Source of the DNA: Pseudomonas alloputida
Lineage (GTDB): Bacteria > Pseudomonadota > Gammaproteobacteria > Pseudomonadales > Pseudomonadaceae
Assembly: GCF_021283545.2 (NCBI RefSeq)
Contig: NZ_CP128540.1
Span: forward strand, 3,755,501-3,819,500
Direction: 5' to 3'
Length of the DNA stretch: 64,000 bases
Position 1 is the first letter of the stretch. The number at the start of each line of letters is the position of its first letter. The translations under genes and the position numbers were made by a program. Shown here piece by piece: positions 25,661 to 42,850 of this stretch. The notes below the pieces were generated by a model. It worked only from the letters and a program-made list of their open reading frames with translations, was not told the origin of the DNA and searched no databases.

Positions 25661-27151
25661 CTACCGCGCCTTGCCAATCGCTTTAGCTGCGTCTGCCAGG
25701 CGTTGGGTCGCCTGCCGGATCTCATCGGCATCCAGCGAAGCAAACCCTAGGCGCAAGGCGTTCTCGGCATGGCCAAACGGTGAAAACTGTCGCCCACTGC
25801 GCACCACCAGGTCCCGTTCCAGCGCTTTGTCGACCAACTGATCCACGTTGATCTCATCGGCAAACCTCACCCACAGCGCCAGGCCACCTTCTGGCGCCTG
25901 CACGCTGATCTGTTCGCCGAACGCATCGCGCAAGCACCCCAACAAAGTCTCGCGCCGGCGCCGGTACTCGCGGTTGACCCGGCGCAAGTGCTTCTTCAGT
26001 TCCCCATCATTGATCAGGTCGGCCAACATCTGCTGCATGACTGCATCGCCCTGCCCCAGGGTCAGCATCGCCCTGCGTTCCAGCACGGTTGTCACTTCCA
26101 CCGGTGCCACGATATAGCTGCAACGAAACGTGCTGCCCAAAGGCTTGGACAGTGAGCCAATGTAAATCACGTGCCGCTGCTGGCGGTCGCTGGCCAAAGG
26201 CAGATAGGGCCGCCCGGCAAAGTGGTATTCGTAGTCGTAATCCTCTTCGACCACGCAAAAGGCATGCTGGCGCGCCAGCTCCAGCAGCTGTTGCCTGCGC
26301 CCGGCTGGCAGGCTGACCGTGGTCGGGAACTGGTGATGGGGCGTTATGTACATCATCCGCACCTTGTGCTGCCGGCACAGGGCATCGAGCTGGTCGACCC
26401 GGCAACCCTCATGGTCCAGCTCCACGGTCACCAGGCGGGCACCCAGCTGACGGAAGATCTCCCAGGCAGGGGGGTAACTCAGGCGCTCGACCAGCACAAC
26501 GTCACCCGGCTTGAGCAACACACTGGCCACCAGGGACAGCGACATCTGCACCCCCTGGGTCAGGCAGATATGCTCGGCGCCAACGTTCAGGCTGCGGTTG
26601 TGCCGCAGCATGTCGGCCAGGGCGCTGCGCAGATTGCGGCTGCTGCACTCGCTGCCGTGGCGAACGCTGTTGCTGGTGAAGCTGCTGCGCAAGGCATTGC
26701 GGTAATAGCGATGCAGTACAGCCTGTGGCAGCAGGCGATGGTCACAGGCGCCGTTGTCGAAGAACAAGGCCCCCGGCCGCCCTTGCTGCGCTACAGCCTG
26801 TTCGTTCGCCTTGAAGTAGGCAACGGCAGGTTCCTCTGGCAGCGCCAGGGCAAAAGGCCGCACGGCACCGGAAGCGGCCGCTGTGCCAGGCGCCAGCTGC
26901 TGGCTGACGAAGGTGCCCCGGCGTTGCACGCTTTGCAGCCAGCCCTTGGTTTCGGCTTCCTCATAAGCAAGGATCACGGTCTTGCGATTGACGTTCAGCA
27001 ATTGCGCCATCTCCCGCGTGCCCGGCAACGGCGTGCCAGGGCGCAGGCGACCCTCGCTGATTGCGGCCACCAGCCCTTCGACGATCTGCCGGTACGAAGC
27101 CTGTGCCCCATCGAGCCTGAGCAGTGGCTGCCATTTACGAAGCTGGACCAT
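25661..27151 (-). CDS. MocR/GntR-type PLP-dependent transcriptional regulator
   Basis: A 496-residue fusion of a GntR winged helix-turn-helix (about 15-80; [19 protein letters not shown]) with a class I aminotransferase-like domain. The PLP-binding Lys is in [13 protein letters not shown], and the cofactor Asp/Tyr region is [10 protein letters not shown]. MocR proteins sense PLP-linked or amino-group metabolites and often control a divergent gene. Here the divergent gene is the ferredoxin-reductase/M24 fusion 78 bases away, which is the likely target. The ATG at 27151 is chosen because longer starts would run into that promoter. Effector unknown. Confidence 0.86.
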
Positions 27152-27229
27152 ATGAAATATCCAAAACTGGAGGTTCTGCTGGTCCTGGACTATAGCAACA
27201 ATCGAACCTCCATTTGCCCCGAGGTGCTC

Positions 27230-28951
27230 ATGCAAAGCCGCCACGTCATTGAATTGTCGCCCTCGGGCAAAACCTTCGAAGCCAGCCAGGAGCTGCTGCT
27301 CGATGCCATGCTCGCCAGCGGCCTGCCGGTACCCTTTTCCTGCCGCCGCGGCGCCTGCGGCTCGTGCAAGGTCAAGGTGGTCTCAGGGCAGCATCAGGAC
27401 AAGCAGCGGGATGCGGACACACCGCCGCCGTCCTATCCCTTGGCCGCCGACGAGATGTTGCTGTGCCAGAGCCACGCCTGCAGCGACATGCGCCTGGAAA
27501 TACCCGGCTGGTCACTGGACGCCCCGGCACTGGAAACCCAGGCACAGGTGGTTGGCAAGCGCGCGCTGAGCGCAGATATCGTCGAGCTGGTGTTGCAGCC
27601 TGCTCAGCCGCTGGAGGTGCGGGCGGGCCAGTACATGCGGTTCCAGCTGGACAACGGCGACAGCCGCTGTTTCTCCATTGCCAACCTGCCTGCCCGGGAA
27701 CAAGGGCAACTGGTGTTTCACATCCGCAAGGTCAGCGGCGGCCTGTTCACTGAAGGTTTGCTGCCCACCCTGCAAGCAGGTGCAACGGTAAAGCTCGAGG
27801 GCCCGCTGGGCGCCTGTACCTGGCAGCACGATGACCAACGCCCGCTGATCCTTTTCGCCACTGGCACAGGTTACGCCGGCATAAAGCCGCTGTTGCTGAC
27901 GGCCTTGGCCGGCGATGCCGACGTCACGCTGTATTGGGGCGGCTCTTCGCCGGCGGATTTCTATGACCGCGAATTTCTCGACGTGTCCAGCCGTGTGCAC
28001 CCGCACTTTCGCTGGCAACCGGTGCTCTCGGCCCAGGCACGTATACAGCAGGTGGCGCTCAGCCAGACGCATCGCTGGGGCGAAACCCAGGTCTATGCCT
28101 GTGGCAATGCCACGATGATCAGCCAGGCCCGCGAGCAATGCCTTGCAGCAGGGGTACCGCCCCATCGCTTTGTCGCCGAGGCCTTTGTCGCCAGCGGTGC
28201 ACTGACAACGCAGGCTTCCTCAGCCAACCCGCTGCACCCTGAGCTGGAAAAGGTCGGCCCACGTTATTCGCTGGACGGCATGCTCGCGGCCCGCGAACAG
28301 TCGGTGCGGGCCGTGGCTGCCATTGCCAGCCAACTGCAGGTCGGTATGACCACCGCCCAGGCACTGGAGATGGCCGCGCATACCCTTCAGGCGATGGGCG
28401 CCTCACACACCTGGCACCCCACCTACATCCGTTTTGGTGACGATACCGTGCGTACGCCACGGCAAGGCATTGACCTTCAACGCGTGTTACGTACCACGGA
28501 CATCGTCGTGGTCGACGTTGGCCCGGTATGGGATGGCTATGAAGGTGACTATGGCGATACCTTCGTGTTTGGCCAGCACGCCCTGCACCACGCCTGCGTG
28601 AAGGCACTGCATGAAGTGTTCGACGAGACCCGCCAGGCCTGGGGCCGCGGGTTGACCGGGCGTGAACTGTATAACTTTGCCGAGCGCAGTGCCCAGGCCA
28701 AAGGTTGGCAGTTGGAGCGCAACCTGGCCGGGCATCGCATCGCCGACTTCCCGCATGTGTTGTACGGCCAGGACAAGCTGGCCGAGGTGGAGATTGTCCC
28801 GAGCGAGGTGGTGTGGGTGCTGGAGATACAGCTGTGCCACCCTACCGAACCTGTCGGGGCATTCTTCGAAGACATCCTGATTGCGAACGCAAGCCGGGGG
28901 CTGCCAGGGCAGCTTGATACCGCATCGGCCCTTGAACCCGTAACAGGTTAA
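27230..28951 (+). CDS. Fusion: 2Fe-2S ferredoxin, FAD/NAD(P) reductase and M24 metallopeptidase
   Basis: A 573-residue protein with three parts in one uninterrupted frame. Residues 1-95 are a plant-type 2Fe-2S ferredoxin (Cys38, 43, 46, 79). Residues about 100-320 are a ferredoxin-NAD reductase module with the flavin motif RCFSIAN (146-152), the nucleotide motif GTGYAGI and CGN at 291. Residues about 340-560 are an M24 'pita-bread' peptidase with all five metal ligands in place: Asp429, Asp440, His502, Glu532, Glu547. Reductases of the first type serve oxygenases or dehydrases; M24 enzymes cleave N-terminal residues, Xaa-Pro bonds or creatine. Fusion of the two is unusual to me. The ATG at 27230 has GAGG five bases upstream. 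Divergent MocR gene; GNAT gene downstream. Substrate unknown. Confidence 0.82.
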   Translation: MQSRHVIELSPSGKTFEASQELLLDAMLASGLPVPFSCRRGACGSCKVKVVSGQHQDKQRDADTPPPSYPLAADEMLLCQSHACSDMRLEIPGWSLDAPALETQAQVVGKRALSADIVELVLQPAQPLEVRAGQYMRFQLDNGDSRCFSIANLPAREQGQLVFHIRKVSGGLFTEGLLPTLQAGATVKLEGPLGACTWQHDDQRPLILFATGTGYAGIKPLLLTALAGDADVTLYWGGSSPADFYDREFLDVSSRVHPHFRWQPVLSAQARIQQVALSQTHRWGETQVYACGNATMISQAREQCLAAGVPPHRFVAEAFVASGALTTQASSANPLHPELEKVGPRYSLDGMLAAREQSVRAVAAIASQLQVGMTTAQALEMAAHTLQAMGASHTWHPTYIRFGDDTVRTPRQGIDLQRVLRTTDIVVVDVGPVWDGYEGDYGDTFVFGQHALHHACVKALHEVFDETRQAWGRGLTGRELYNFAERSAQAKGWQLERNLAGHRIADFPHVLYGQDKLAEVEIVPSEVVWVLEIQLCHPTEPVGAFFEDILIANASRGLPGQLDTASALEPVTG

Positions 28952-30805: not shown

Positions 30806-33800
30806 TCACCGCCACTCGCTGGAAGGCTCCAGCGGTGTCACCGGCAGGGCTAGGTTGCCTCGCCACGGTTCGAACAGGTAGCGCAGGTAGAGCATGCCAT
30901 GGCTAGGCGCATAGTCATCGCTATGCTGCCAGTCGAAGCCGCCGCCCAGTACCCACTGGTCACTTAGGCGCCGTTCGAACAGACCGCGCAGGCGGTAGCC
31001 CAACCCGCTGCTGTCGCTGGCTTCGGTCATCGCATCGATGTTGGAGTCGACGCCATAATTCGCCAGTACCTTGCGGTTGATGTGCGCGTCCGGGTACAAG
31101 CGGCTACTGCCACTATGAGCCTGAGACCAGCTGACGGAACCTTCCAGCAGCAGCGACCAGTCGTAGTTGCGCCAGGCATAACTGACCGGCACGCCCACCG
31201 AACTGTAGCGCTGCGGGCTGTAGTAACCGCCCTGCCCCAGGCTGTAGCCGCCCAGGTCCTTGTCATGGCGCCAGTGCATCAGCGTCACGCCAACACGTAC
31301 ACGCTCGTCGGCCTTTTCCACCACGCGGTGGTAAAAGCCGGCCATGGCCCGGGTCCGCTGGTTGTCGGCCACGTTTTCGCCGTACAGCCAATGGTGCCCC
31401 AGGCTGGCCCACACCCCGTTGTCGCCACCTTGGTCCCAGCTCAGGCCGAGCGTGGCGCCATTGGCAGTGACCCCGCCCCAGCGCACGCCCGTCGGGCGGT
31501 CGCGTGCGCCGGCGAACGACAGCAATGAATTGCTCATCGGCCGGCGCGAGGCGGTCAGCGACCAGCCAACCTGCCCGAGGTCACCGTTGACCGTTGCGCC
31601 GCCCAGCCAGTTGTTGATTGCATAGCCCTGGGTGGTGCCCAGGTCGAACGCCCAGCGGCTGCCCTGCCAACCCAACGCCAACAGGCTGCCGTTTGCAGTC
31701 TGCGATCCCCCCGTGCACGCGGGCAGTGTTTTGCCGTCAGCGGTCTGGCCAACAAACTGGCAGCTGCCGAAGTCGGGGGTGTAGCTTCCCTGATCGTTCG
31801 GCTCGAACGACCCCGCATCCATGCCAATGCGCTCTACTCGCGCAAACGCGGTGCCCTCCTGCCAAGGGGTGTCGACATGCAACAAGGTCGACTGGGTACT
31901 CAGTTCCGAAGTACCGGGCGTACCGTCATCCTCGCGCCAGCCGTAGTCATGCATCAGCGTCACATGGGTATTGCGCTGGCGATACAGGGCATCCACATCA
32001 CTGCGCAGGCTGCGGGCCAGCCAGTCGTCGCCATCCTGCTCGCGGCTGGCCAGGGTCAATGCACGGTCATCCCGTGGCGCTACGGCAGCACGGTCCAGCA
32101 ACTGCGCATCGGCCATCGCTGCCGCGTAAAGGTCCAGTGCTCGTTGAGGATCATCCTGCGCTACCAGGCGGGCTGCGTCGCGCCGCAACAACGGATCGGG
32201 TCGCGTCTGCTGCGCGGCAATCCGGTCAAGCAGCCTGGCCGCCTGATCGTGTTCACCCAGCGCGGTCCACACCGCCGCCAGGCGCCGCTGGGCGTTGCCG
32301 TCATCAGCGGCAAATTGTGGCACCTTCACGCCCAGCATGTGCCGGGCCTGCTGCAGGTTGCCTTCGGCCACGGCGCTTTCCATCACCCCAAGGCGTGCAT
32401 CAGGGCGCCCAGGCTGCACGACCAGTACACGCTGGTAATAGCTGCGCGCCTTGCCATGTTCACCACGCGCTGCTGCCCAGTCAGCCAACAGCATCAAGTC
32501 GTCCGGGCTACCTTCACCACGCGCCAGGCCGGCTTCAAGCAAGGCTGTCGCCTCGGCACTGCGGCCTTGTGCCTGCAACTGCTGCGCAGAGGCCAGGGTC
32601 ATACGCCGCTGAACACGCTGTTCCAGCGCGTGCATGTCCGCGCTCCAGGTCGCCTGAGGTACCGCCCTCAGACTTTCCAGAGCCAAGGCATCACGGTCGC
32701 TGGACTCCAGGAACAGGCCGTTGGCATAGCGCGTTGCCGGATCACGTGGCTGGTGCTGCACCAGCCTGGCAAATGCCGCGTCGGCCTCGCCAGTGCGCCC
32801 TTGGTGACGCAGACTGTTGGCCAGCTGATACACCAGCCAAGGCTCATCGGGGGCCAGGGCCGAAGCCTGGCCCAGCACGTGGCTGGCCGTCGACCAGTCC
32901 TCGCGCTGCAGGGCTTCGTCCCCTTGCTGGCGCAGCCGCGCAAGTTCCAGGCTGCGTCGCAGGCTGGCGAACTGCGCCTGCTGCCGTGGTGGCAGGCTGT
33001 CCAGGTATGCCTGCGCCTTGCCTGGCGACTGCGCCTGGTAAACGCGCATCAAGCCACGCACGGCACTTTCGTTATCCGGCGCCATACGCCGTACCTGCAG
33101 GTACTGCCGCTCGGCAGCCGCCACATCGCCCTCGGCCAGCGAGACATCTGCCAGGCCCAGCAACGCGTATTCATCCTTTGGCCGTTGCTGGCGAGCCTGC
33201 TGGTAAAGTGCGCGCGCACCGCGCACGTCTTTCACCTCCAGGGCCCGCTCGGCTTTCTTCAGCAGGGCCCAATACTGGCTGGACGACTCCAGGTCCTTCC
33301 ATTGGCTGATCCAGTAGGTGTCCTGCTCCTTGGCGCTCGCCGCGCGGAACGCCGCATGGGCGTCTTCATGGCGGCCCTGGCGCATCAACGCATAACCCAG
33401 GGCCCCATGCAGGCTGGCATCGCCCGGGTACTGGCGCAGTGCGCGGCGCAGCTGCGTTTCCGCTTCGGCATTAAGGCCCTTGTCGAGCAATGCCTTACCC
33501 CGTTGACCGGCCTGCCATGCCGGGTCGGCCAGCAGCTTGCGCTGCTGTTGCAAGGTCTCGCTGGCCTGTGCCAGCAACGGCGAAGCCGGGTAACGCTGAA
33601 GAAAGGCTTGCCAGGCTGCCGCGCTGGTGGCACTCACGGCTTGCCCGGACAGGTAGTCGAACTCGCGCTGGGCAGCGGCATCCCGTGCACCAGGGTCTCG
33701 CGCCAGCTGATCGAGCAGGGCCAAGGCCTCGCGGTCACGCTTTTCGGCGAACAACCAACCAGCCAGGGTCTGGCGCAGCCCGGCGCTGCCCGGGTACTGC

Positions 33801-34324
33801 TGATCCAACCGCTGCAACTGGCGGATCGCCTCAGGGCGTTGGCCTGGCAGATTGCCGCGCACGCGCCAGTAGTCCAGGGCCAATTCAAGGCTGGGTGGTT
33901 CGCCGGCAAACAACTGTTCGTATACCGCCAGCGCCTCTTCATTACGGCCGGTAACTGCCAGCAGACGCGCCTGCTGCAAGCGCCGTGCAGGCGCCGGTTG
34001 TTGAAGCTCAAGCAGGCGTGCGGCCTGACGTGCTTGCAGGCTGCCAGGCGCCACGGCACTGATCCGCGCACTCAACTGCTCGGCTTCACTGCTGTTCTTC
34101 TCGCGCAATGCCAGGCTCAAGGCCGCCAGCAACACGTCCGGGTTGCGCGGCTCAAGCAACTGCAAACGGCCCAGCGCATCGCGCACCAGGTCGTCACGGT
34201 GCAGCGCTTCGCCGCGGCGTACCTGGTCCAGCAGCCATTGGCGCTGTTCATCGATATCCTTGGGTTGCGCATCTGCCTGGCAGGTTATTGCCGCCAGCAT
34301 CAACACGCCGATCATTCGCTGCAT
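30806..34324 (-). CDS. bcsC: Cellulose synthase outer-membrane subunit BcsC
   Basis: A 1172-residue protein that carries cellulose across the periplasm and outer membrane. A signal peptide (residues 1-18) is followed by about 800 residues of TPR repeats (many ALxxxGRxxEAxAxY-type units) and a C-terminal beta-barrel from about 830 with the BCSC marks YSPQRYSS and LYLRYLFEPW near the end. The ATG at 34324 has GGAG six bases upstream and overlaps bcsZ by 13 bp. Last gene of the bcs operon. Length is normal for BcsC. Confidence 0.95.
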   Translation of the reverse strand: MQRMIGVLMLAAITCQADAQPKDIDEQRQWLLDQVRRGEALHRDDLVRDALGRLQLLEPRNPDVLLAALSLALREKNSSEAEQLSARISAVAPGSLQARQAARLLELQQPAPARRLQQARLLAVTGRNEEALAVYEQLFAGEPPSLELALDYWRVRGNLPGQRPEAIRQLQRLDQQYPGSAGLRQTLAGWLFAEKRDREALALLDQLARDPGARDAAAQREFDYLSGQAVSATSAAAWQAFLQRYPASPLLAQASETLQQQRKLLADPAWQAGQRGKALLDKGLNAEAETQLRRALRQYPGDASLHGALGYALMRQGRHEDAHAAFRAASAKEQDTYWISQWKDLESSSQYWALLKKAERALEVKDVRGARALYQQARQQRPKDEYALLGLADVSLAEGDVAAAERQYLQVRRMAPDNESAVRGLMRVYQAQSPGKAQAYLDSLPPRQQAQFASLRRSLELARLRQQGDEALQREDWSTASHVLGQASALAPDEPWLVYQLANSLRHQGRTGEADAAFARLVQHQPRDPATRYANGLFLESSDRDALALESLRAVPQATWSADMHALEQRVQRRMTLASAQQLQAQGRSAEATALLEAGLARGEGSPDDLMLLADWAAARGEHGKARSYYQRVLVVQPGRPDARLGVMESAVAEGNLQQARHMLGVKVPQFAADDGNAQRRLAAVWTALGEHDQAARLLDRIAAQQTRPDPLLRRDAARLVAQDDPQRALDLYAAAMADAQLLDRAAVAPRDDRALTLASREQDGDDWLARSLRSDVDALYRQRNTHVTLMHDYGWREDDGTPGTSELSTQSTLLHVDTPWQEGTAFARVERIGMDAGSFEPNDQGSYTPDFGSCQFVGQTADGKTLPACTGGSQTANGSLLALGWQGSRWAFDLGTTQGYAINNWLGGATVNGDLGQVGWSLTASRRPMSNSLLSFAGARDRPTGVRWGGVTANGATLGLSWDQGGDNGVWASLGHHWLYGENVADNQRTRAMAGFYHRVVEKADERVRVGVTLMHWRHDKDLGGYSLGQGGYYSPQRYSSVGVPVSYAWRNYDWSLLLEGSVSWSQAHSGSSRLYPDAHINRKVLANYGVDSNIDAMTEASDSSGLGYRLRGLFERRLSDQWVLGGGFDWQHSDDYAPSHGMLYLRYLFEPWRGNLALPVTPLEPSSEWR

Positions 34325-35427
34325 GGCGCGCTCCAGGCCGGCAACAGCCGGCCGTGCGGGTCAAAACGGTAACGGGCCTCGTCGAAGCCCTGGCCGAACA
34401 GCGCCAGCACCTGGCTGTAATACGCCTTGGCCTCGACCGGCTGTTCGCGCAAGCGCTGGCGCTGGGCCGCCAAGCCGGCCACGTGCTCTGGCGAGGCAGC
34501 AAGCAATGGCAGCAAGGCCGCAGAGAAACCCGCCGGGCCATGGCCGCGGGCTTCACCGCTGCGTGCATCCAGGTGCTCAGGAGGTAGCCCCTGGCGCTGG
34601 GTCAATGCCGCCATCGGCGCATAATGGGCCACCAGTTCGCGGCGTTGCGCCGCCCCCTCGGCCAACATGCCGACCCACAGGTACACACGAATGGCGTCAT
34701 AATCACCGGCATTGCCATGTTTCGTGTCTGCCGCTGGCTTTCCGGCCGGCGTCCACAGCAACCAGTCCGGGGCAAAACCCTTTGGCGACGATGCCAACCA
34801 CAAACGCCGCGTGTTGGCCGCCAGCTCACCCCACAAGGGGTCCACATCGCTGAAGCGGTCGAGCAGCTGCAGCGGCAGGTAGCTGGGGTTCAGGCGGGTA
34901 CCCTGGGCGTCTTCGAAGCCGTAGTCACCTGGCAGCAACATCACACCAAGGCCTGGAAGCTTGCGCACGGTCTGCGCGGCGATACGCCACAGCAGGTGCT
35001 GGCCCAGTTGCGTGTAGGCCGGCTGGTCCCACAACCGCCCTGCTTCCAGCAGGCTGTAGGCGATCCACAGATCGGCATCGCTGGCGTTGTTGGCGTCCAG
35101 CACCTGCCACTGCTGCTGCCCGTCACGGCCCCACAGCCAGGCAGGCAGATGCCGGGCCAGGTCACCCTCGGCGAGGTTGTTGCTGGTCCAACGCAGCAAC
35201 TGCGCGAAGGTTTGCCGGTCGTTACCTACCAGGGCGAAGAACAGCGCGTAACTCTGCCCTTCCGAGGTGGTGATCAGGCGCTCGTCACTCGGGTCGATGA
35301 CCCGCCCATCCACACTCACCAGCTCGGCCTTGAACCGCTCCCAGGCAGGCCATGGGCAAACCGACCCGGCATTGGCGAAAACGGGCAGGCCTAAGGCGAC
35401 CAGCCCTACCAGCATCTGGCGCATCAT
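34312..35427 (-). CDS. bcsZ: Periplasmic cellulase BcsZ (GH8)
   Basis: A 371-residue family 8 endoglucanase with a signal peptide cleaved near residue 21. The catalytic acid Glu lies in TTSEGQSYALFFAL (about 56) and the second acidic residue in NASDADLWIAYSLLEA (about 116), the usual GH8 pair. It trims or releases nascent glucan and is needed for normal cellulose output. TGATG links the bcsB stop with the ATG at 35427; an ATG at 35424 is equally possible. Confidence 0.95.
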   Translation of the reverse strand: MMRQMLVGLVALGLPVFANAGSVCPWPAWERFKAELVSVDGRVIDPSDERLITTSEGQSYALFFALVGNDRQTFAQLLRWTSNNLAEGDLARHLPAWLWGRDGQQQWQVLDANNASDADLWIAYSLLEAGRLWDQPAYTQLGQHLLWRIAAQTVRKLPGLGVMLLPGDYGFEDAQGTRLNPSYLPLQLLDRFSDVDPLWGELAANTRRLWLASSPKGFAPDWLLWTPAGKPAADTKHGNAGDYDAIRVYLWVGMLAEGAAQRRELVAHYAPMAALTQRQGLPPEHLDARSGEARGHGPAGFSAALLPLLAASPEHVAGLAAQRQRLREQPVEAKAYYSQVLALFGQGFDEARYRFDPHGRLLPAWSAPCSE

Positions 35428-37715
35428 CACCCCGCCTCACCCAAGCGGCGCTTGCCTGCCCAGCGCAGTGCCCGCCACAACAAGAAGGCGAACAGCACCA
35501 CGCAAACAGCCGCGATCACCGCCAGCAACACAGGGTGCTCGGACAAGTGGAACCACAGCAGCAGCCACCATGGCAGCGCGCCCACGAAGTAGTGCTCGCC
35601 GACGAACTGGCTGCTCACGCCACTGCTGCGTAACAGCGTTACCGAACCCGCCACCGCATCGAGCTTGCCTACATCGCCAAGCATGTCGCGCAGCAATGCG
35701 TAATCGCTGTCGCTGTTGGCCAGCAAGGCCACAACACTGCGCTGCTCGTGGAACGGCGACTTCAGCCCGGTGATGGCCGCAATCGGCGCCTGGGCGCTGA
35801 CCGCCACGCGGCTGCTTGCAGCCACCGGCTCAGTATCGAAACGCTGGCCACCGGGCAACGATGCGCTGCGGCCCTGCAGCAACCAGTCACGCTGGGCGCT
35901 GAGCAACAGGCCAAGGTCGGGCGCGTCGCGCAGGGCCTCGGGCAGGCTGCCGATCAGCAGCAAGTCGGCGTCTGCCGCTGCGACCTGTTGCCAGTCGTCG
36001 ATCAATTGCAGGCCAAGCGCCGGGTAACCGATCTGTCCGGCCAACCCGCCAACTGTGTCGAGCAAAGTGCCGACCTGCATCGCCGTAGGTTTGGCCGGCA
36101 TGATGACCAGCGTCTCGGACAGGTCGGCCATGCGGCTGAACGGGAAGCCACTGCGGGCGAATGCACGCAGGTCGGGCATGGCGATGTAATGGTGGTAACC
36201 AGAAAGGTCGATGGTGGAGTTGTCGTCGATCGCTGCACGCACGTCCACCGGCAGCGAGGTCTGGCAGCGATCGCGCTGGGCGCTGCCCAAGGTGCTGGCA
36301 AAGCTGAAGTCGAAGCGCAGGCGGTTGCGGTCGCCAATCTTCAGCGCCGGCACCAGCGAGTTCTCGCTCAATGCAGTGTTGTCACCGGACAGCACTGCCA
36401 GGCGCATTTCCTCAAGGGTACCGCCGCGCCGGTCATTGCCCACCAGCGGCATGCTGGTGATGTACTGATCGTTGACGCTGATGCTCAGGCGCGATTCGTC
36501 GGTCACCGCTGGCGCCGTATAGCGGTACAGGGTGCGCAGCGGAATACCCTGGTTGCGCCAGACGAACAAGTCGGGCGGCAGGTTCAGTTCCAGTGTCACC
36601 GGCCGCGGTTGCAGGCCGCTGACTTGCAGTTGCTCGGGGTAATCCAGCAGTTCGGCAAATCGTACCGGCCGGTCGGTGCGCGTCCAGTTCGGCGCATCGT
36701 AGGGCTGACGCGGTTGCAACGCGGTCATCTGCTCCACTTTGACGCGCGCGCCACGGAACAGATTGTTGCCGACCGCCAGCGCCGAGGCGGCCTTGATCAG
36801 GTCGTCGTCGTTACGGCCCAGCACCAGCAGCACTTTGCTGAAGCGGTCGTGCGGATGATCGATCACCTGCAGCACGGGGCCGTCGACTGGCGGGAACTGC
36901 TGCAGATCGGCGAGGAACGCCGGGCGACGGTCGTTGCTGGCAAACACGATGCTCGGTGCAGGTTTTTCGCCACGGGCCGGCAGGTTGTTGTACAACACAG
37001 GGAAGCTGGCCTTGCGCCAACCGGCCTGGCTGCCGAAGTAGGATGCCAGGATTGCCGCCGCACGCTGCTCGCCCAGGCTCGGCACGCCGCTGAACACCAC
37101 CGGCAGCACTACCTTGCCGGTGTCGCGGGTATCGAAGAACGGCAACGGGAAATGCGCCAGGTCGTTTTCCAGCACCAGCGCCTGCTCGTGCAACTGTACC
37201 TGGCTCTTGCGGTTGAGGTTAAGCCACAGGCCGCTGTGGGCCGGGTCTTCGCAGACATCGGTATAGTGCCCGACAAACTCCAGACGTACCCGGTTGAAGT
37301 CGCCAAGCAGTTTCGGGTCCAACGGCAGCTGGCGACGTACACGCTGGCCCAACTGCTCCTTTTCCACCGGAACTACGCCCATCAGCTCGTCGTTGAGGTA
37401 GACGCGCAAGTGCGACAGGTTCGGCAGCAAGGCTGGCGAAGGCGTGTAGTCCAGTTGCAAGCTGGCATCGGTGGCCAGGCGATCGCGACGCAGGCCAAAC
37501 TCGATATGCTCACTGTTGCGTACCCCCAGCAGCAGGCTGTCGGACGCATGCCCAAGCTGCTCGAAGGTTTTCGCAACCTGCCAGTTTGGTACCGTGGGTG
37601 TGGGTACCGCAGGCTCGGCAAGCGGAGCTACGGAAGCAGCAGCGGCGCTCTGCGACAAGGCGGTAAACAGCGCCATCGCCAGGCCCCAGGTACGCGCGGG
37701 ATAACCAGTCATCAT
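35427..37715 (-). CDS. bcsB: Cellulose synthase periplasmic subunit BcsB
   Basis: A 762-residue periplasmic partner of BcsA: signal peptide about 1-27, long carbohydrate-binding/flavodoxin-like body (for example DVCEDPAHSGLWLNL and the later TLGSAQRDRCQTSLPVDVRAAID) and a single C-terminal helix about 728-750 that anchors it beside BcsA. Start ATG 37715 overlaps the bcsA stop (ATGATG). Length and layout are normal. Confidence 0.94.
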   Translation of the reverse strand: MMTGYPARTWGLAMALFTALSQSAAAASVAPLAEPAVPTPTVPNWQVAKTFEQLGHASDSLLLGVRNSEHIEFGLRRDRLATDASLQLDYTPSPALLPNLSHLRVYLNDELMGVVPVEKEQLGQRVRRQLPLDPKLLGDFNRVRLEFVGHYTDVCEDPAHSGLWLNLNRKSQVQLHEQALVLENDLAHFPLPFFDTRDTGKVVLPVVFSGVPSLGEQRAAAILASYFGSQAGWRKASFPVLYNNLPARGEKPAPSIVFASNDRRPAFLADLQQFPPVDGPVLQVIDHPHDRFSKVLLVLGRNDDDLIKAASALAVGNNLFRGARVKVEQMTALQPRQPYDAPNWTRTDRPVRFAELLDYPEQLQVSGLQPRPVTLELNLPPDLFVWRNQGIPLRTLYRYTAPAVTDESRLSISVNDQYITSMPLVGNDRRGGTLEEMRLAVLSGDNTALSENSLVPALKIGDRNRLRFDFSFASTLGSAQRDRCQTSLPVDVRAAIDDNSTIDLSGYHHYIAMPDLRAFARSGFPFSRMADLSETLVIMPAKPTAMQVGTLLDTVGGLAGQIGYPALGLQLIDDWQQVAAADADLLLIGSLPEALRDAPDLGLLLSAQRDWLLQGRSASLPGGQRFDTEPVAASSRVAVSAQAPIAAITGLKSPFHEQRSVVALLANSDSDYALLRDMLGDVGKLDAVAGSVTLLRSSGVSSQFVGEHYFVGALPWWLLLWFHLSEHPVLLAVIAAVCVVLFAFLLWRALRWAGKRRLGEAG

Positions 37716-40321
37716 GCGTCTCGATCAACAGGGTTCATGGAAGGGATTGCCTGCGGTGTGCGGGGCCAGTAGCTGGCCAGCCACGACGCCAGCGAACGCA
37801 ACGGGCGCAACCACGCCCGCAGCCATGGCGGCATGTGCTCGACCAGGCGCACGTAACCGACGCCACCCAGCTTCAACACATCGATCAGGCTGCGCAGCGG
37901 GCGCTCGACCTCGTGCTGCTCGTTCCAGCCAAGCCAGGCATCGGCGCGGGCAAAGGTGCAGTGGACCAGGTCGATACGCTGCTGCAGGGCGAGGTCGCGG
38001 AACACCAGGCCCACGTGTTGCCCGACGGTACGGGTGACGCACGCCTGGAAGGCGAACTCGCGCTGGCCGCGGTTGAGCAGCAGGCGTACCTGCTCCCCCG
38101 GTTTCAGCTCCAGACCGGGCTGTACCTGCAGGCCGATACCGCCGTCGGAGTAGTCGACCAGGGTGCAGGGGTAGGCATGACCGCTGGCAAGCATCAGCCC
38201 CGCCGGCAAGCGCATCTGCACCCGATGGGCGCGGCGCACCTGGCGCACTTCGGCGGCCACCGCAACTGCGGCACCGATAATCAGCAGGTTGTAGATCACC
38301 CACAGCGAGCTGACGATCACCGTGCCGATTTCTGCCGTCGGGCCGGTGACCAGGCGCCACACCGCAAAGCCCAGACCCACCACGTTGAGCGCCGCCAGCC
38401 ACAGGTAAGGTTGGGCGATTCGCCAGTCGAACTGTTCCTGCTCCATCAAGCCGCCCTTGGCGGTGACGTTGAACGTGCCTTTTTTCGGCGCGAACAGCGC
38501 CACCGTGGTTGGGCGGGCGATGTACCAGGCCAGTACGGTCTCGTAGACCTCGCCCCAGAAGGTTTGTCGGTACCTGCCCTGCATGCGCGAGTTGGTCAGG
38601 CTGGCGTGGATCATGTGTGGCAGCACGTACAGCAGAATCATCAATGCCGGTGCGTAGATGATGTAGGCATGCAGCAACAGGAACGCCAGTGGCGCCGTCA
38701 GGAACACCAGCCGCGGCAGGCCGGCCAGAAAGTGCAGCATCGCGTTGGCGTAGCACACCCGCTGGAACAGGCTAAGGCCACGCCCGAACAGCGGGTTGTC
38801 GGTGCGGAAGATCTGCACCATCCCACGGGCCCAGCGAATGCGCTGGCCGATGTGCGCCGACAGGCTTTCAGTGGCCAGGCCCGCAGCCTGCGGAATGCTC
38901 AGGTAGGCTGATGTCCACCCTTGACGATGCAGGCGCAGGGCGGTGTGGGCATCCTCGGTCACGGTCTCGACGGCAAAACCACCGATGCTCTCCAGCGCGG
39001 TGCGGCGCAGCACGGCACACGAGCCGCAGAAAAACGCCGCGTTCCACATATCGTTGCCGTCCTGGATCAGGCCGTAGAACAGCTCCCCTTCGTTGGGGCG
39101 GCGGCGGAACGAACCGAGGTTGCGCTCGAACGGGTCAGGCGAGAAGAAATGGTGCGGTGTCTGCACCAGCGCCAGTTTAGCGTCCTTGAGGAACCAGCCC
39201 ACGGTCAGTTGCAGGAAGGAGCGCACCGGCACATGGTCGCAGTCGAAGATGGCGATCAACTCGCTGTCGGTCACGCCCAGCGCATGATTGAGGTTACCGG
39301 CCTTGGCATGCTTGCTGTCGGGCCGCACGATATACCCTACCCCGACTTCGTCGGCAAAGGCACGAAACGCGTCGCGGCGGCCATCATCGAGAATGTAGAT
39401 GCGCAGGCACTCGCGTGGCCAGTCCAGGCCCAGCGCGGCCATTACCGTGGTGCGCACCACTGACAGGTCTTCGTTGTAGGTGGGGATCAGCAAATCGACG
39501 GTTGGCCAGTGCCTGGTGTTGGCCGGGAGGTTTGCCGGCTTGCGCTGCAATGGCCAGCTGGTCTGGATGTAACCCAGGATCAGCACGAACCACGAATAGG
39601 TTTCTGCCGCCAACAGGATCACCCCGAATACCAAGTCGGTGGTGTCGTTCCAGTTCAGGGTCGAGGTGTAGCGCCACCACAGATAGCGGCACGAGATAAT
39701 GGTCGACAGCACGATCAGCATCAAAGTCGGGAAACGCCCCGGCATGTGTCGCACCAGCAAGGCGATGACCAGCAGCAGGCAGATGAACATCAGCTGCGCC
39801 AGGTAGCCGAACGGTTCGGTCACGCACAGCAGGGCGAGGCTGAGGGCGAATACCGTCAGCACGCTATAGAACGCCCGCCGGGCAAACACGCTCAGGCCGC
39901 GCAGGCGTGCCGAGGCCTGGTGTTTGAAAGCACTGGCGCGGTAGCGCGCGGGTACCTGTTGCAATGCATCGATCAGCAGGCCGCGGTAGTGGCGCGCCAC
40001 CCCGCCTGCCGCCCGCAGGTGCATGCGCACCGCGCCCAATGCGCGGCGGCCAGGCCTTGCTGTACGCACCTGCGGTTGGCGCCGCAGCAACAACCACAGG
40101 CTCTGGATCAACAGACGCAGCGGGTCACCCAGGGTCGGGCGCTTGCCCGCCAGCTGCGGGTACAGGCGTTGGCGCTCGGCCAGCAGCGCCTGCCAGGCGG
40201 GTGATTCCAGGCGCAGGAACAGGAAGGCCAGCCACACGCCGAGGGTGAACAGCCACGCGACCGGCAGACGCGCACCACGGACAGTGAACCAGGTATAGGC
40301 CGACAGAGGGTTCAGGGTCAC
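37712..40321 (-). CDS. bcsA: Cellulose synthase catalytic subunit BcsA (UDP-forming)
   Basis: An 869-residue inner-membrane glycosyltransferase that polymerises glucose from UDP-glucose and extrudes the chain. Family 2 motifs are complete: Asp312-Asp313 in ILDDGRR, DCD at 360-362, TED at 455-457 and QRIRW at 493-497. About eight helices surround the domain. The C-terminal PilZ domain has RRAHR and DYSDGGIG, the c-di-GMP-binding pair, so activity should need c-di-GMP. The start overlaps the bcsQ stop (ATGA). Length matches the enterobacterial form (about 870). Confidence 0.96.
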   Translation of the reverse strand: MTLNPLSAYTWFTVRGARLPVAWLFTLGVWLAFLFLRLESPAWQALLAERQRLYPQLAGKRPTLGDPLRLLIQSLWLLLRRQPQVRTARPGRRALGAVRMHLRAAGGVARHYRGLLIDALQQVPARYRASAFKHQASARLRGLSVFARRAFYSVLTVFALSLALLCVTEPFGYLAQLMFICLLLVIALLVRHMPGRFPTLMLIVLSTIISCRYLWWRYTSTLNWNDTTDLVFGVILLAAETYSWFVLILGYIQTSWPLQRKPANLPANTRHWPTVDLLIPTYNEDLSVVRTTVMAALGLDWPRECLRIYILDDGRRDAFRAFADEVGVGYIVRPDSKHAKAGNLNHALGVTDSELIAIFDCDHVPVRSFLQLTVGWFLKDAKLALVQTPHHFFSPDPFERNLGSFRRRPNEGELFYGLIQDGNDMWNAAFFCGSCAVLRRTALESIGGFAVETVTEDAHTALRLHRQGWTSAYLSIPQAAGLATESLSAHIGQRIRWARGMVQIFRTDNPLFGRGLSLFQRVCYANAMLHFLAGLPRLVFLTAPLAFLLLHAYIIYAPALMILLYVLPHMIHASLTNSRMQGRYRQTFWGEVYETVLAWYIARPTTVALFAPKKGTFNVTAKGGLMEQEQFDWRIAQPYLWLAALNVVGLGFAVWRLVTGPTAEIGTVIVSSLWVIYNLLIIGAAVAVAAEVRQVRRAHRVQMRLPAGLMLASGHAYPCTLVDYSDGGIGLQVQPGLELKPGEQVRLLLNRGQREFAFQACVTRTVGQHVGLVFRDLALQQRIDLVHCTFARADAWLGWNEQHEVERPLRSLIDVLKLGGVGYVRLVEHMPPWLRAWLRPLRSLASWLASYWPRTPQAIPSMNPVDRDA

Positions 40322-41025
40322 GGCTGGCGCCTCGTCAGACAGCGCACCGCCAGGCTTTGCACATCCCGGCAGGCCAGGCTCTGCGGTGCGTAAAGACCCA
40401 GGGGAGCCTTGTACGCCAGCGCTTCGAGGAAGGCTTCGTCGCGATGGACCACCTGGATCGGCAAGCGATCACGAAACAAGTCACGCCACACCATCAACAG
40501 GTCGCTCTGCAAGCGGCTGGCCGGGTCATAGCGGTTGACCAGCAGCATGTCGAAGTGCTCGAGCGGACGTCGCCCGAGCAGCAGGTGGCTGGCCATTTCG
40601 GCTTCTGCCACCAGTACCCGTACATCAGTCTCGATGCCATTGCCGGTGGTATCGCCCGGCAATTGCGGCAGGTCGTACAACAGCCAGTCGAAATGCTCGG
40701 CCAGCTCGACCTGGCGAGCGGGCCATGACTGCGCATCGGGCACACGGTGCTGCGCACCGCCAGGCAGGTTGCCGTACGGCAGCAGGCACAGGCCATCGAG
40801 CACCTCGTACACGGCATCGCTGAACGGCCGCCCTTCCCGCTCGGCCAGCGCCCAGCCCTCGGACGTATCCAGCGGCAGGTTGAAGTGCAGCCCGAGCAAG
40901 TTGCTGGGGCACAGGTCAATCAGCAGCACCCGTTCGCCCACGCCCTGCAGCGCGTAGCCCAATGCAGCCAGCAAGGCGCTGCGCCCCAGGCCTCCGCGTA
41001 CCCCATGCAAAGCCAGGCTGGTCAT
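40318..41025 (-). CDS. bcsQ: BcsQ (YhjQ), MinD/ParA-like ATPase of the cellulose operon
   Basis: A 235-residue SIMIBI-class protein that localises the cellulose machine at the pole in E. coli. The opening LHGVRGGLGRSALLAALG corresponds to the BcsQ P-loop; the usual Lys of GKT is Arg here, and the deviant Lys is Arg too. E. coli BcsQ also departs from the standard loop. Later blocks LLIDLCPSNLLGLHFN and HRDEAFLEALAYKAPLG match BcsQ. ATGA overlaps on both sides tie it to bcsR and bcsA. Confidence 0.9.
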   Translation of the reverse strand: MTSLALHGVRGGLGRSALLAALGYALQGVGERVLLIDLCPSNLLGLHFNLPLDTSEGWALAEREGRPFSDAVYEVLDGLCLLPYGNLPGGAQHRVPDAQSWPARQVELAEHFDWLLYDLPQLPGDTTGNGIETDVRVLVAEAEMASHLLLGRRPLEHFDMLLVNRYDPASRLQSDLLMVWRDLFRDRLPIQVVHRDEAFLEALAYKAPLGLYAPQSLACRDVQSLAVRCLTRRQP

Positions 41026-41240
41026 GGCGCGACCCTCTCGCGCCGGGTGACAGCCGCGTACAGCGCATCGTCGCTGCTGGCCCTGCAGCTTTCACCCAGC
41101 AATGGCCAGCGCTGCAGGGCCTGCTGAACGCCCACCAGCATCGAGATGTCCTGGTAGTTCAGCTCAGGCATGTCCAGGTGCTGGCGCAACTGGGCAATAT
41201 CGTCGCTACGGTCGGACGGGTCTGCCTTGCCAGTGATCAT
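41022..41240 (-). CDS. bcsR: BcsR (YhjR), small cellulose regulator
   Basis: A 72-residue protein whose core LNYQDISMLVGVQQALQRW matches BcsR (DUF2629). In E. coli BcsR forms a complex with BcsQ that tunes BcsA and c-di-GMP binding. It overlaps bcsG (ATGA) upstream and bcsQ downstream. Confidence 0.88.
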   Translation of the reverse strand: MITGKADPSDRSDDIAQLRQHLDMPELNYQDISMLVGVQQALQRWPLLGESCRASSDDALYAAVTRRERVAP

Positions 41241-42850
41241 GGGCGCTCCTTGGGGATCGGCTGCCAGTCAGGCTGGCCTTGCAGGCGCATGTAGGCGCGC
41301 CCCTGGTAATTCAGCACCTGTGCGCCAGAGGTTTCGGCAACCTGCTCGGTGGTTGGCAGGTCGGTCAGCAGGCCGGGCACATCCAGCACCTGCTGCTGGC
41401 CGAGGCCCGCATACACACGCGAGATCAGCTCGGACAGCGCCAGGTAGCTGGTGGCAGCAGTGACCCGCAGCGGCTCGTTGCGGGCAGGCTGGCCCATGCC
41501 GATGAACTTCAGGCCGACCGGCACATGGGTAATCGACGGCGTGGGAATTTCGCGCATGCCCGACAACTGCATGCGATCACCATGCAACGCGGCCCCATGC
41601 TCAGGGACAATGGCCACCACTACGCGGCGGCCACTGCCCTCCAGTTCGTCAAGGAAGGTGCCAAGTTCGCCAAACAGGCGATTGGCGCGGGTGGCATAGT
41701 CGGCCACGCGGGTACCGCCGTCGGCGGTGACGATACGGTTGCCGTCATGCAGGCTGATGCTGTTGTAGAACAGTGACACATGTTCGTCCGGGGTGCCTTT
41801 GCGTTGCCCCCACCAACGGCGCAAGACATCCAGGTCACTGGCAATCGGCGAGCCGTCGAAGCCCACCAGTGCCCGTGGGAAGTCGGTATTGCGCATGCCC
41901 GGTTGCGGCATGCGCTGCTGGGTAATGTCGCCGATGAAGTTGTCGAACCGGCCGCTGTGGTTGAGCAAGGTGTTGCTCTGGAAACCCAGCCGGGCCAGGT
42001 TCTGGAACAACAGGCACTGCTCCGGGGCCGGTTGGTACAGGCCAGCGTGCGACGACTGCCCACAGCTGGCACGCAGCACACGGATTGCGGCCGGGCCGCT
42101 GTAGGAGGTCGCCGAGTTGAACTGGTCGAAGATCACGTCCATGCGCGACAACAGTGGGTTGTCCCGCAGCCCCACGGCGGACAGGTCATCCCAGGCCAGC
42201 GAGCAGATGTTGATTACCAGCAGGTCGAACGGTTGCTCATCGGCACTCACGGCAGGGAACGCCGTCACCCGCTCGCGCTCACTGGCGAAGAAGCGCTCAA
42301 GCCAGCTGTCGAGCGTGGCATTGTCGGCTGCTGCAGTGGCAGGCGCGGGTTCGGCTGCGGTACGCGCCGCCACGCCGGGCGCCTGGCCTGCAACCAGCGA
42401 CGGCAAGCCGCCGACCGACAGCCATGCCAACCCCAGCAGGCTCAGGGTGCTCAGGCGCAGCCAATGGCGTAGGTACAGGTAACCCACCAGCAACATTGCC
42501 AGCGCCCCCAGCAGGTTCCAGTTGATGAAGCGGCCCAGCAGCTCGAGCAGATAGTCCCACGAGAAGTCCAGCACCCCCGGCTGCGCCAGCAGGCGGCTGA
42601 AGGGTGGCAGCCAGGTGTCCTGGTAGAAAAGCGCGATACCGATTGGCACCGCCAGCAGTTGCCGGGCAATACGCAGCCACTTGCCCGGCAAAGGGACAAG
42701 CAGAAACGCAGCGAACAACAGGTTCGGCAGCGCCTGGAAGTCGAGCATGCCCAGCGCGACCAGCAGAAACTTTGCAAAAAAATAGAGGTTCCACCCTCCC
42801 AGTCCAGGCCAGCGGGCCAGTACCGGGAGGGTGATGGTGGTATTAGTCAT
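41237..42850 (-). CDS. bcsG: Cellulose phosphoethanolamine transferase BcsG
   Basis: A 537-residue inner-membrane enzyme that adds phosphoethanolamine to cellulose. Four to five helices occupy residues about 20-155; the periplasmic alkaline-phosphatase-like domain follows. Expected active-site residues are visible: Cys216 in NICSLAWDD, the nucleophile Ser251 in SYSGPA, and Glu-His in VPEHGAAL. Intact motifs imply that this strain can make the modified cellulose. The ATG at 42850 overlaps the bcsF stop by eight bases. Confidence 0.93.
   Translation of the reverse strand: MTNTTITLPVLARWPGLGGWNLYFFAKFLLVALGMLDFQALPNLLFAAFLLVPLPGKWLRIARQLLAVPIGIALFYQDTWLPPFSRLLAQPGVLDFSWDYLLELLGRFINWNLLGALAMLLVGYLYLRHWLRLSTLSLLGLAWLSVGGLPSLVAGQAPGVAARTAAEPAPATAAADNATLDSWLERFFASERERVTAFPAVSADEQPFDLLVINICSLAWDDLSAVGLRDNPLLSRMDVIFDQFNSATSYSGPAAIRVLRASCGQSSHAGLYQPAPEQCLLFQNLARLGFQSNTLLNHSGRFDNFIGDITQQRMPQPGMRNTDFPRALVGFDGSPIASDLDVLRRWWGQRKGTPDEHVSLFYNSISLHDGNRIVTADGGTRVADYATRANRLFGELGTFLDELEGSGRRVVVAIVPEHGAALHGDRMQLSGMREIPTPSITHVPVGLKFIGMGQPARNEPLRVTAATSYLALSELISRVYAGLGQQQVLDVPGLLTDLPTTEQVAETSGAQVLNYQGRAYMRLQGQPDWQPIPKERP

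Follow-up and report, generated by a model that had tools for sequence, protein, structure and literature searches.

A possible self-contained redox enzyme, so far undescribed: a ferredoxin–reductase–M24 fusion beside a divergent MocR gene in many Pseudomonas and Burkholderiales

Why is a ferredoxin-bearing reductase joined, in a single polypeptide, to a domain of the M24 (pita-bread) superfamily? The question is raised by a gene at 27230–28951 (forward strand) in a 64,000-nucleotide stretch of Pseudomonas alloputida DNA (contig NZ_CP128540.1, positions 3,755,501 to 3,819,500), hereafter the window. The gene is one open frame without an internal stop and encodes 573 amino acids (aa), in which a [2Fe-2S] ferredoxin, a flavin adenine dinucleotide (FAD)/NAD(P)H reductase, and an M24 domain follow one another; a gene for a MocR-type regulator lies divergently beside it. 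Our analysis confirmed that the fusion is real and conserved; its recurrence next to MocR in many Pseudomonas and Burkholderiales suggests a self-contained redox enzyme that has gone undescribed.

The initial annotation had read these three modules from a single frame, and Pfam agrees: Fer2 (residues 8–83, 27251–27478), FAD_binding_6 (residues 105–197), NAD_binding_1 (residues 209–301), and Peptidase_M24 (residues 350–551, 28277–28882) all matched above the gathering score. It had also named the cluster cysteines (Cys38, Cys43, Cys46, and Cys79) and the metal ligands (Asp429, Asp440, His502, Glu532, and Glu547) correctly, and the motifs RCFSIAN, GTGYAGI, and CGN that it listed are present in the translation. 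The FAD- and NAD-binding domains (residues 105–301, 27542–28132) were delimited by Pfam and close solved structures, and the variable linker (residues 320–346, 28187–28267) by a predicted local distance difference test (pLDDT) score below 50 and low identity among relatives; all of these features lie on the forward strand. An in-frame ATG at 27152 offers an alternative start that would give 599 aa, and most relatives, among the matches listed, are 550–594 aa long. The protein is currently named “NAD(P)H dependent flavin oxidoreductase family protein” or “M24 family metallopeptidase” in databases, and we found no experimental basis for either name. Our searches of the open PubMed Central (PMC) literature, a scope outside which most subscription papers fall, showed no description of the fusion.

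A search of the window protein against 5.8 billion proteins returned 272 relatives at E ≤ 0.001; the 120 that were listed are mostly full-length and have the complete set of four Pfam domains, and almost every one with a name belongs to Pseudomonas. An Achromobacter relative used as a second query returned 339 relatives; the 120 listed are again mostly full-length, and those with names came from Achromobacter, Bordetella, Burkholderia, Paraburkholderia, Variovorax, Roseateles, Herbaspirillum, and Collimonas as well as Pseudomonas. A few listed relatives are partial (for example, P0086, P0097, and P0192–P0194), and no clear split pair of genes was seen among those listed from both queries. Of 57 relatives, 3 had a near-full-length match; such matches also occurred in 53 of 398 Pseudomonas genomes and, within a family sample of 245 genomes built around the Herbaspirillum genome of locus L187, in 11. 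The fusion is not universal in Pseudomonas, since only 138 of the 398 genomes had any match at E ≤ 1e-40 and 260 had none; 85 of the 138 lacked a full-length match and, as far as listed, matched through the M24 part alone. The M24 part as query at 1e-20 matched 1 of 369 class genomes (the window's own) and 15 of 398 phylum genomes, and its matches outside the genus were frames of 171–255 residues, that is, standalone proteins.

We fetched 79 named loci, comprising 55 of the Pseudomonas type (one labelled Pantoea), 1 Pseudomonas fragment (L200), and 23 from Burkholderiales. The halves are joined in a single open frame in 77 of them, 22 of the 77 being Burkholderiales, and the exceptions are the L200 fragment and the frame-broken L201. 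A motif count gave 76/79; L192 failed the ferredoxin motif only, yet holds one 591-codon segment with the M24 motifs (569 aa called), which brings the count to 77. Our own frame calling, which shortened some starts, called the fused gene in 75 loci and missed it in L130 and L174, each of which holds one open frame. One M24 motif string failed in ten family-sample loci, but each has a single segment of 560–633 codons. The L200 fragment (also L106), from Pseudomonas sp. K2I15, is an open frame of 165 codons covering M24 sequence 81–83% identical to the fusion, and the same strain carries a full copy (L131), so that the fragment appears to be the decay of a duplicate. At L201:3443-6688 in Variovorax sp. 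E3, the fused gene, and apparently its MocR gene too, is split over frames, through assembly error or decay.

For an alignment of 76 fused proteins, we joined to the window protein 75 relatives chosen from the 213 listed, leaving out evident partials and many near-copies. The four cluster cysteines, the five metal ligands, His396, and His509 are invariant in all 76. Across 13 sampled rows, identity to the window protein is 40–97% in the reductase, 50–98% in the M24 domain, and 5–85% in the linker; the eight most distant rows retain 40–44% and 50–53% in the two halves, and linker residues 321–340 are 5–37% identical in 12 of the 13 rows and 85% in the nearest. Judged from these sequences, both halves are conserved together while the join drifts. 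An M24 tree of 70 rows was made from every second row of the alignment (38/76) and 32 of 39 standalone rows (L033, L038, L101, L105, L106, L117, and L119, which are partial or badly delimited, were left out). All 38 fused rows lie on one side of a branch with support 100/99, so a single origin of the fusion is the simplest history; inside this clade, the Herbaspirillum rows fall with those of Pseudomonas, and Achromobacter falls with Variovorax and Roseateles. The tree program warned that long branches meet, namely L118 with L121/L122 and L088/L114 with the fused rows. The standalone relatives L088 and L114 branch beside the fused clade (90/77, not starred, under that warning); at L088:7019-8552, the gene next to the M24 gene encodes an HD-domain protein that reads as cyanamide-hydratase-like.

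An unusual combination of domains, with a fragment (L200) and a frame-broken copy (L201) elsewhere, might suggest that in this strain the frame is pseudogenic or a read-through without meaning. The same fusion with its key residues in 76/76 aligned proteins, including other genera, the joined frame in 77/79 named loci, and the single group on the tree speak against this; on the sequence comparison, the conserved fusion in other genera already refutes it, and we give it next to no chance. The initial annotation had likewise thought a random read-through unlikely, and the arrangement that it pointed out, a reductase (here of oxygenase type) joined to an M24 domain with a full ligand set, beside a regulator of pyridoxal 5′-phosphate (PLP) type, proved to be genuine and selectively kept. 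Relatives keep the halves joined and, as far as tested, two separate genes do not take their place; the architecture is fairly common, with its Pfam domains precomputed in the database, and no characterisation of it was found in the literature searched.

The divergent MocR-type gene (25661–27151, reverse strand) is the one near-constant companion of the fusion. Pfam confirmed both this facing gene (GntR and Aminotran_1_2) and the GNAT gene that follows the fusion, as first annotated. By tblastn, the MocR gene was present at 76 of 80 loci (the window and the 79); at L188 and L198 its N-terminal part is cut by the contig end, which makes 78/80, and at L200 (the fragment copy) and L195 it was not found. 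It was also present in 10/10 loci read from the 11 positive family-sample genomes, with 55–60% identity to that of the window. The gene products have the features of MocR regulators, with a GntR helix-turn-helix, an aminotransferase-like domain, and the PLP-type lysine, the last in 85/85 aligned sequences of both types described below. Counted within five genes at the 75 scored loci, the MocR family occurs at 73, and the family that ranks second at 21. The conserved unit is MocR plus the fusion.

Two distantly related MocR types, as judged by sequence, hold the same divergent place. Both exceed the NCBIfam PdxR cut-off (340.8 and 420.2 against 320 bits), and the MocRs of the Achromobacter/Variovorax group are just 26–31% identical to that of the window. 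One of them, compared with the window's own genome, scored 222.7 and 217.8 bits with two other MocRs and 154.1 bits with the window's. In a tree of 6 of 56 Pseudomonas-type, 7 of 20 Burkholderiales, and 11 own-genome rows (three of the last with long branches), the seven Burkholderiales MocRs group with two other own-genome MocRs (100/98), apart from the window's. Either one type was displaced by a second, or the lineages acquired their MocRs separately. The 78-bp divergent intergenic region (27152–27229) shares blocks across loci: CTGGAGGTT at 27167–27175 is present in 56/56 Pseudomonas-type loci, and a candidate inverted repeat found by locus comparison is formed by GGACCAT (27145–27151, overlapping the MocR start codon; 56/56) and TGGTCC (27180–27185; a similar arm in 53/56). 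The conservation of GGACCAT is the weaker evidence because this arm is partly coding. The Burkholderiales block differs, with AGTGGCyTG in 20/20 loci. These blocks are consistent with predicted MocR control of the neighbouring promoter.

Known MocR regulators sense amines. According to published accounts, characterised members bind PLP and control PLP, γ-aminobutyric acid (GABA), and taurine genes, and one controls ectoine catabolism. The window regulator resembles MocR, GabR, and PdxR in its GntR helix-turn-helix, aminotransferase-like domain, and PLP lysine, and differs in that its neighbour is a single fused redox gene; the terms “M24” and “peptidase” are absent from the main text of a MocR regulon survey (PMC5320631).

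The reductase half is of the broad Fer2-FAD-NAD type, with putative electron transfer to an oxygenase. It has the domain order of oxygenase reductases, the four cluster cysteines, and a fold like that of solved members: close structures are GcoB (5ogx), E. coli flavin reductase (1qfj), BenC (1krh), and T4moF (4wqm), and among the best solved relatives the titles of GcoB, BenC, T4moF, and carbazole dioxygenase reductase mark them as oxygenase reductases. No NCBIfam reductase equivalog cut-off was reached (BenC, 117.1 of 430 bits; PRK05713, 113.3 of 338; PaaE, 72.5 of 420.8). GcoB, BenC, carbazole dioxygenase reductase, T4moF, and MmoC, all with an N-terminal ferredoxin, are separate proteins serving a partner oxygenase, whereas in the window protein an M24 domain trails in the same chain. 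The self-sufficient P450 CYP116B46 (6laa, full-length among the structural matches) likewise combines an oxygenase-type reductase and a catalytic domain in one chain; in the window protein the catalytic domain has the M24 rather than the P450 fold, and the ferredoxin is N-terminal. An AlphaFold model of the whole protein had a pLDDT of 80.9 and a predicted template modelling score (pTM) of 0.58, with the linker (320–346, below 50) modelled as poorly ordered. Fold comparison of this model covered mainly residues 98–322, and the M24 domain was therefore folded alone (pLDDT 89.1, pTM 0.87).

The C-terminal domain belongs to the M24 superfamily by its fold and five metal ligands, and Trp395, His396, Arg401, and His509 are invariant as well. 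The histidine at the place of methionine aminopeptidase (MetAP) His79, or of the prolidase PHG motif, is not kept: HMMER alignments place non-histidine residues there, and residues 403–420 contain no conserved histidine column among the 76 fusions, 19 of which have a histidine somewhere in this range. His79 takes part in the exopeptidase chemistry of MetAP, and such chemistry is less likely because the residue is lost. This separates the window protein from the M24 exopeptidases MetAP I, prolidase, and aminopeptidase P, and the MetAP-type NCBIfam model (met_pdase_I) was not reached (35 of 171.35 bits). The aminopeptidase, Xaa-Pro, or creatinase-like activity suggested in the initial annotation is thereby weakened rather than excluded.

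The site, with four carboxylates and one histidine (76/76), is carboxylate-rich; this is the usual M24 set and is not specific to di-iron oxygenases. Known di-iron oxygenases use the four-helix bundle, the heme-oxygenase-like fold, and others; no such fold was found in the M24 half, which is pita-bread by sequence and fold. Many di-iron enzymes have two histidines and four carboxylates, as stated in the abstract of PMC12851003. The nearest precedent by description, not by alignment, is DddP, a dimethylsulfoniopropionate lyase described in the available part of PMC4108388 as an M24-fold non-peptidase with a dinuclear site of two irons, an extra metal ligand (Asp297) said to be without counterpart in MetAPs, and no mention there of a reductase such as the one the window protein carries. 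DddP, creatinase, and ectoine hydrolase were not among the 50 fold matches listed for the M24 domain and are not thereby excluded. We do not file the protein as a MetAP, a prolidase, BenC, or a known di-iron oxygenase because a defining feature of each was tested and was not found.

The standalone M24 relatives, mostly 35–43% identical, share the metal ligands and the W-H and R motifs of the fusions, and in them too the His79-place histidine is missing. Their gene context was considered as a guide to function and set aside, as the mapped 26-member cluster has no shared partner and no reductase: in 10 loci the same housekeeping-type genes flank the M24 gene, and elsewhere the neighbours read as LysR-, TetR-, amidase-, or gamma-glutamylcyclotransferase-like. 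Some standalone proteins (e.g., L096:7001-7657) are recorded at NCBI as “(Fe-S)-binding protein” with M24 as their only precomputed Pfam domain, a name perhaps carried over from fused relatives.

How might the parts work together? We propose, tentatively and at somewhat under an even chance, that the product works as a self-sufficient redox enzyme, its reductase supplying electrons to the M24 dimetal site for the oxidation of an amine-bearing small molecule. Electrons would flow from NAD(P)H through FAD to the [2Fe-2S] cluster, which, by means of the flexible linker, would deliver them to the two-metal site of the fused M24 domain; this site, probably loaded with iron, would activate O2 and oxidise a small amine- or amino-acid-like compound, and the divergent MocR would sense the same compound. 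We infer the M24 domain as electron acceptor, the redox-active iron, the use of O2, and the amine on the substrate. Reductases with a Fer2 domain hand electrons one at a time to an acceptor protein. No gene for such an acceptor accompanies the cassette (neither an oxygenase nor a third component is a constant neighbour within five genes in the 75 scored loci), which makes the M24 domain in cis the most economical candidate. The invariant cysteines and ligands, the joint conservation of both halves, the poorly ordered linker, the missing His79-place histidine, and the two MocR types in one divergent place also favour this reading. The MocR roles in PLP, GABA, taurine, and ectoine metabolism, as far as the available accounts reach, lead to the guess of an amine-bearing substrate, and the two irons reported for DddP (PMC4108388, in part) lend precedent. 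The protein may work like a self-sufficient oxygenase; we assign it to no oxygenase family. That it is the first oxygenase or oxidase on the pita-bread M24 fold, NAD(P)H- and O2-dependent, with a dimetal site turned from hydrolysis to oxidation by the fused reductase and induced by its amine substrate via MocR, we regard as possible but doubtful.

Several observations weigh against this proposal. The close relatives of the reductase are not confined to those with an oxygenase partner, since E. coli flavin reductase and NqrF rank high too; the pTM of the full model gives no docking geometry; and no M24-fold oxygenase turned up in the open literature searched. His509, at the MetAP His178 place by its spacing after His502, fits hydrolysis too. 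The standalone relatives share the ligands, motifs, and histidine loss, and no constant reductase partner of theirs was seen, so these features alone do not indicate redox chemistry. An acceptor may also be encoded elsewhere in the genome. The two halves could instead be tethered but independent activities of one short pathway, in which the M24 half carries out hydrolysis, elimination, or isomerisation and the target of reduction by the other half is a substrate, a flavin, or a separate acceptor. We consider this somewhat unlikely: the four Fer2 cysteines are invariant, which points to one-electron delivery to a protein acceptor, and no acceptor gene is a constant neighbour, though one elsewhere in the genome could serve.

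It is also conceivable that the M24 half is an Fe(II)-dependent hydrolase or lyase and that the fused reductase merely keeps its iron ferrous, a role proposed for YfaE with ribonucleotide reductase. Such maintenance would suit the ligand set and His509, intact in 76/76, and iron is possible in M24 enzymes, as DddP indicates in the part of PMC4108388 available. Against it, the literature searched yielded no M24 hydrolase that has a dedicated reductase, the loss of the His79-place histidine makes ordinary exopeptidase chemistry less likely, and a permanently fused NAD(P)H reductase would seem costly for maintenance; we hold it unlikely.

The remaining neighbours vary. In the window, the GNAT gene follows the fusion and a DapA-like gene is convergent. 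Both were examined as constant partners in an 80-locus map (flanks of about 5 kb, genes from our own frame caller) and rejected, the GNAT cluster (26) being present in 4 loci and the DapA-like cluster (12) having 6 members. The gene next downstream is on the opposite strand in 51/75 loci, on the same strand at more than 100 bp in 20/75, and within 100 bp in 4/75, including the window; the small pathway with an acetyltransferase envisaged in the initial annotation is not supported. At L195:3855-11525 in Paraburkholderia ginsengiterrae, the fused gene lies 102 bp behind a 4-hydroxyphenylpyruvate dioxygenase gene (TIGR01263, 280.6 against 277 bits), with extradiol-dioxygenase-like genes, a C–C hydrolase-like gene, and an aspartate dehydrogenase gene nearby; this context hints at aromatic amino acids and, as one locus of 80, was not used as evidence. 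Further along the window, a cellulose synthesis operon occupies 30806–42850 on the reverse strand, with genes for a BcsC-like protein (30806–34324), GH8 (34312–35427), BcsB (35427–37715), cellulose synthase with PilZ (37712–40321), BcsQ (40318–41025), and BcsG (41237–42850).

If the M24 domain does accept electrons, the small set of O2-activating folds would be widened by one that is known for cleaving peptide and related bonds, and the uncharacterised short M24 relatives in many Pseudomonas genomes would become candidates for non-peptidase chemistry. The cassette brings together a regulator, an enzyme, and a probable link between inducer and substrate. Even if the M24 domain is not the acceptor, MocR and the fusion form a compact, testable two-gene system in tractable soil bacteria.
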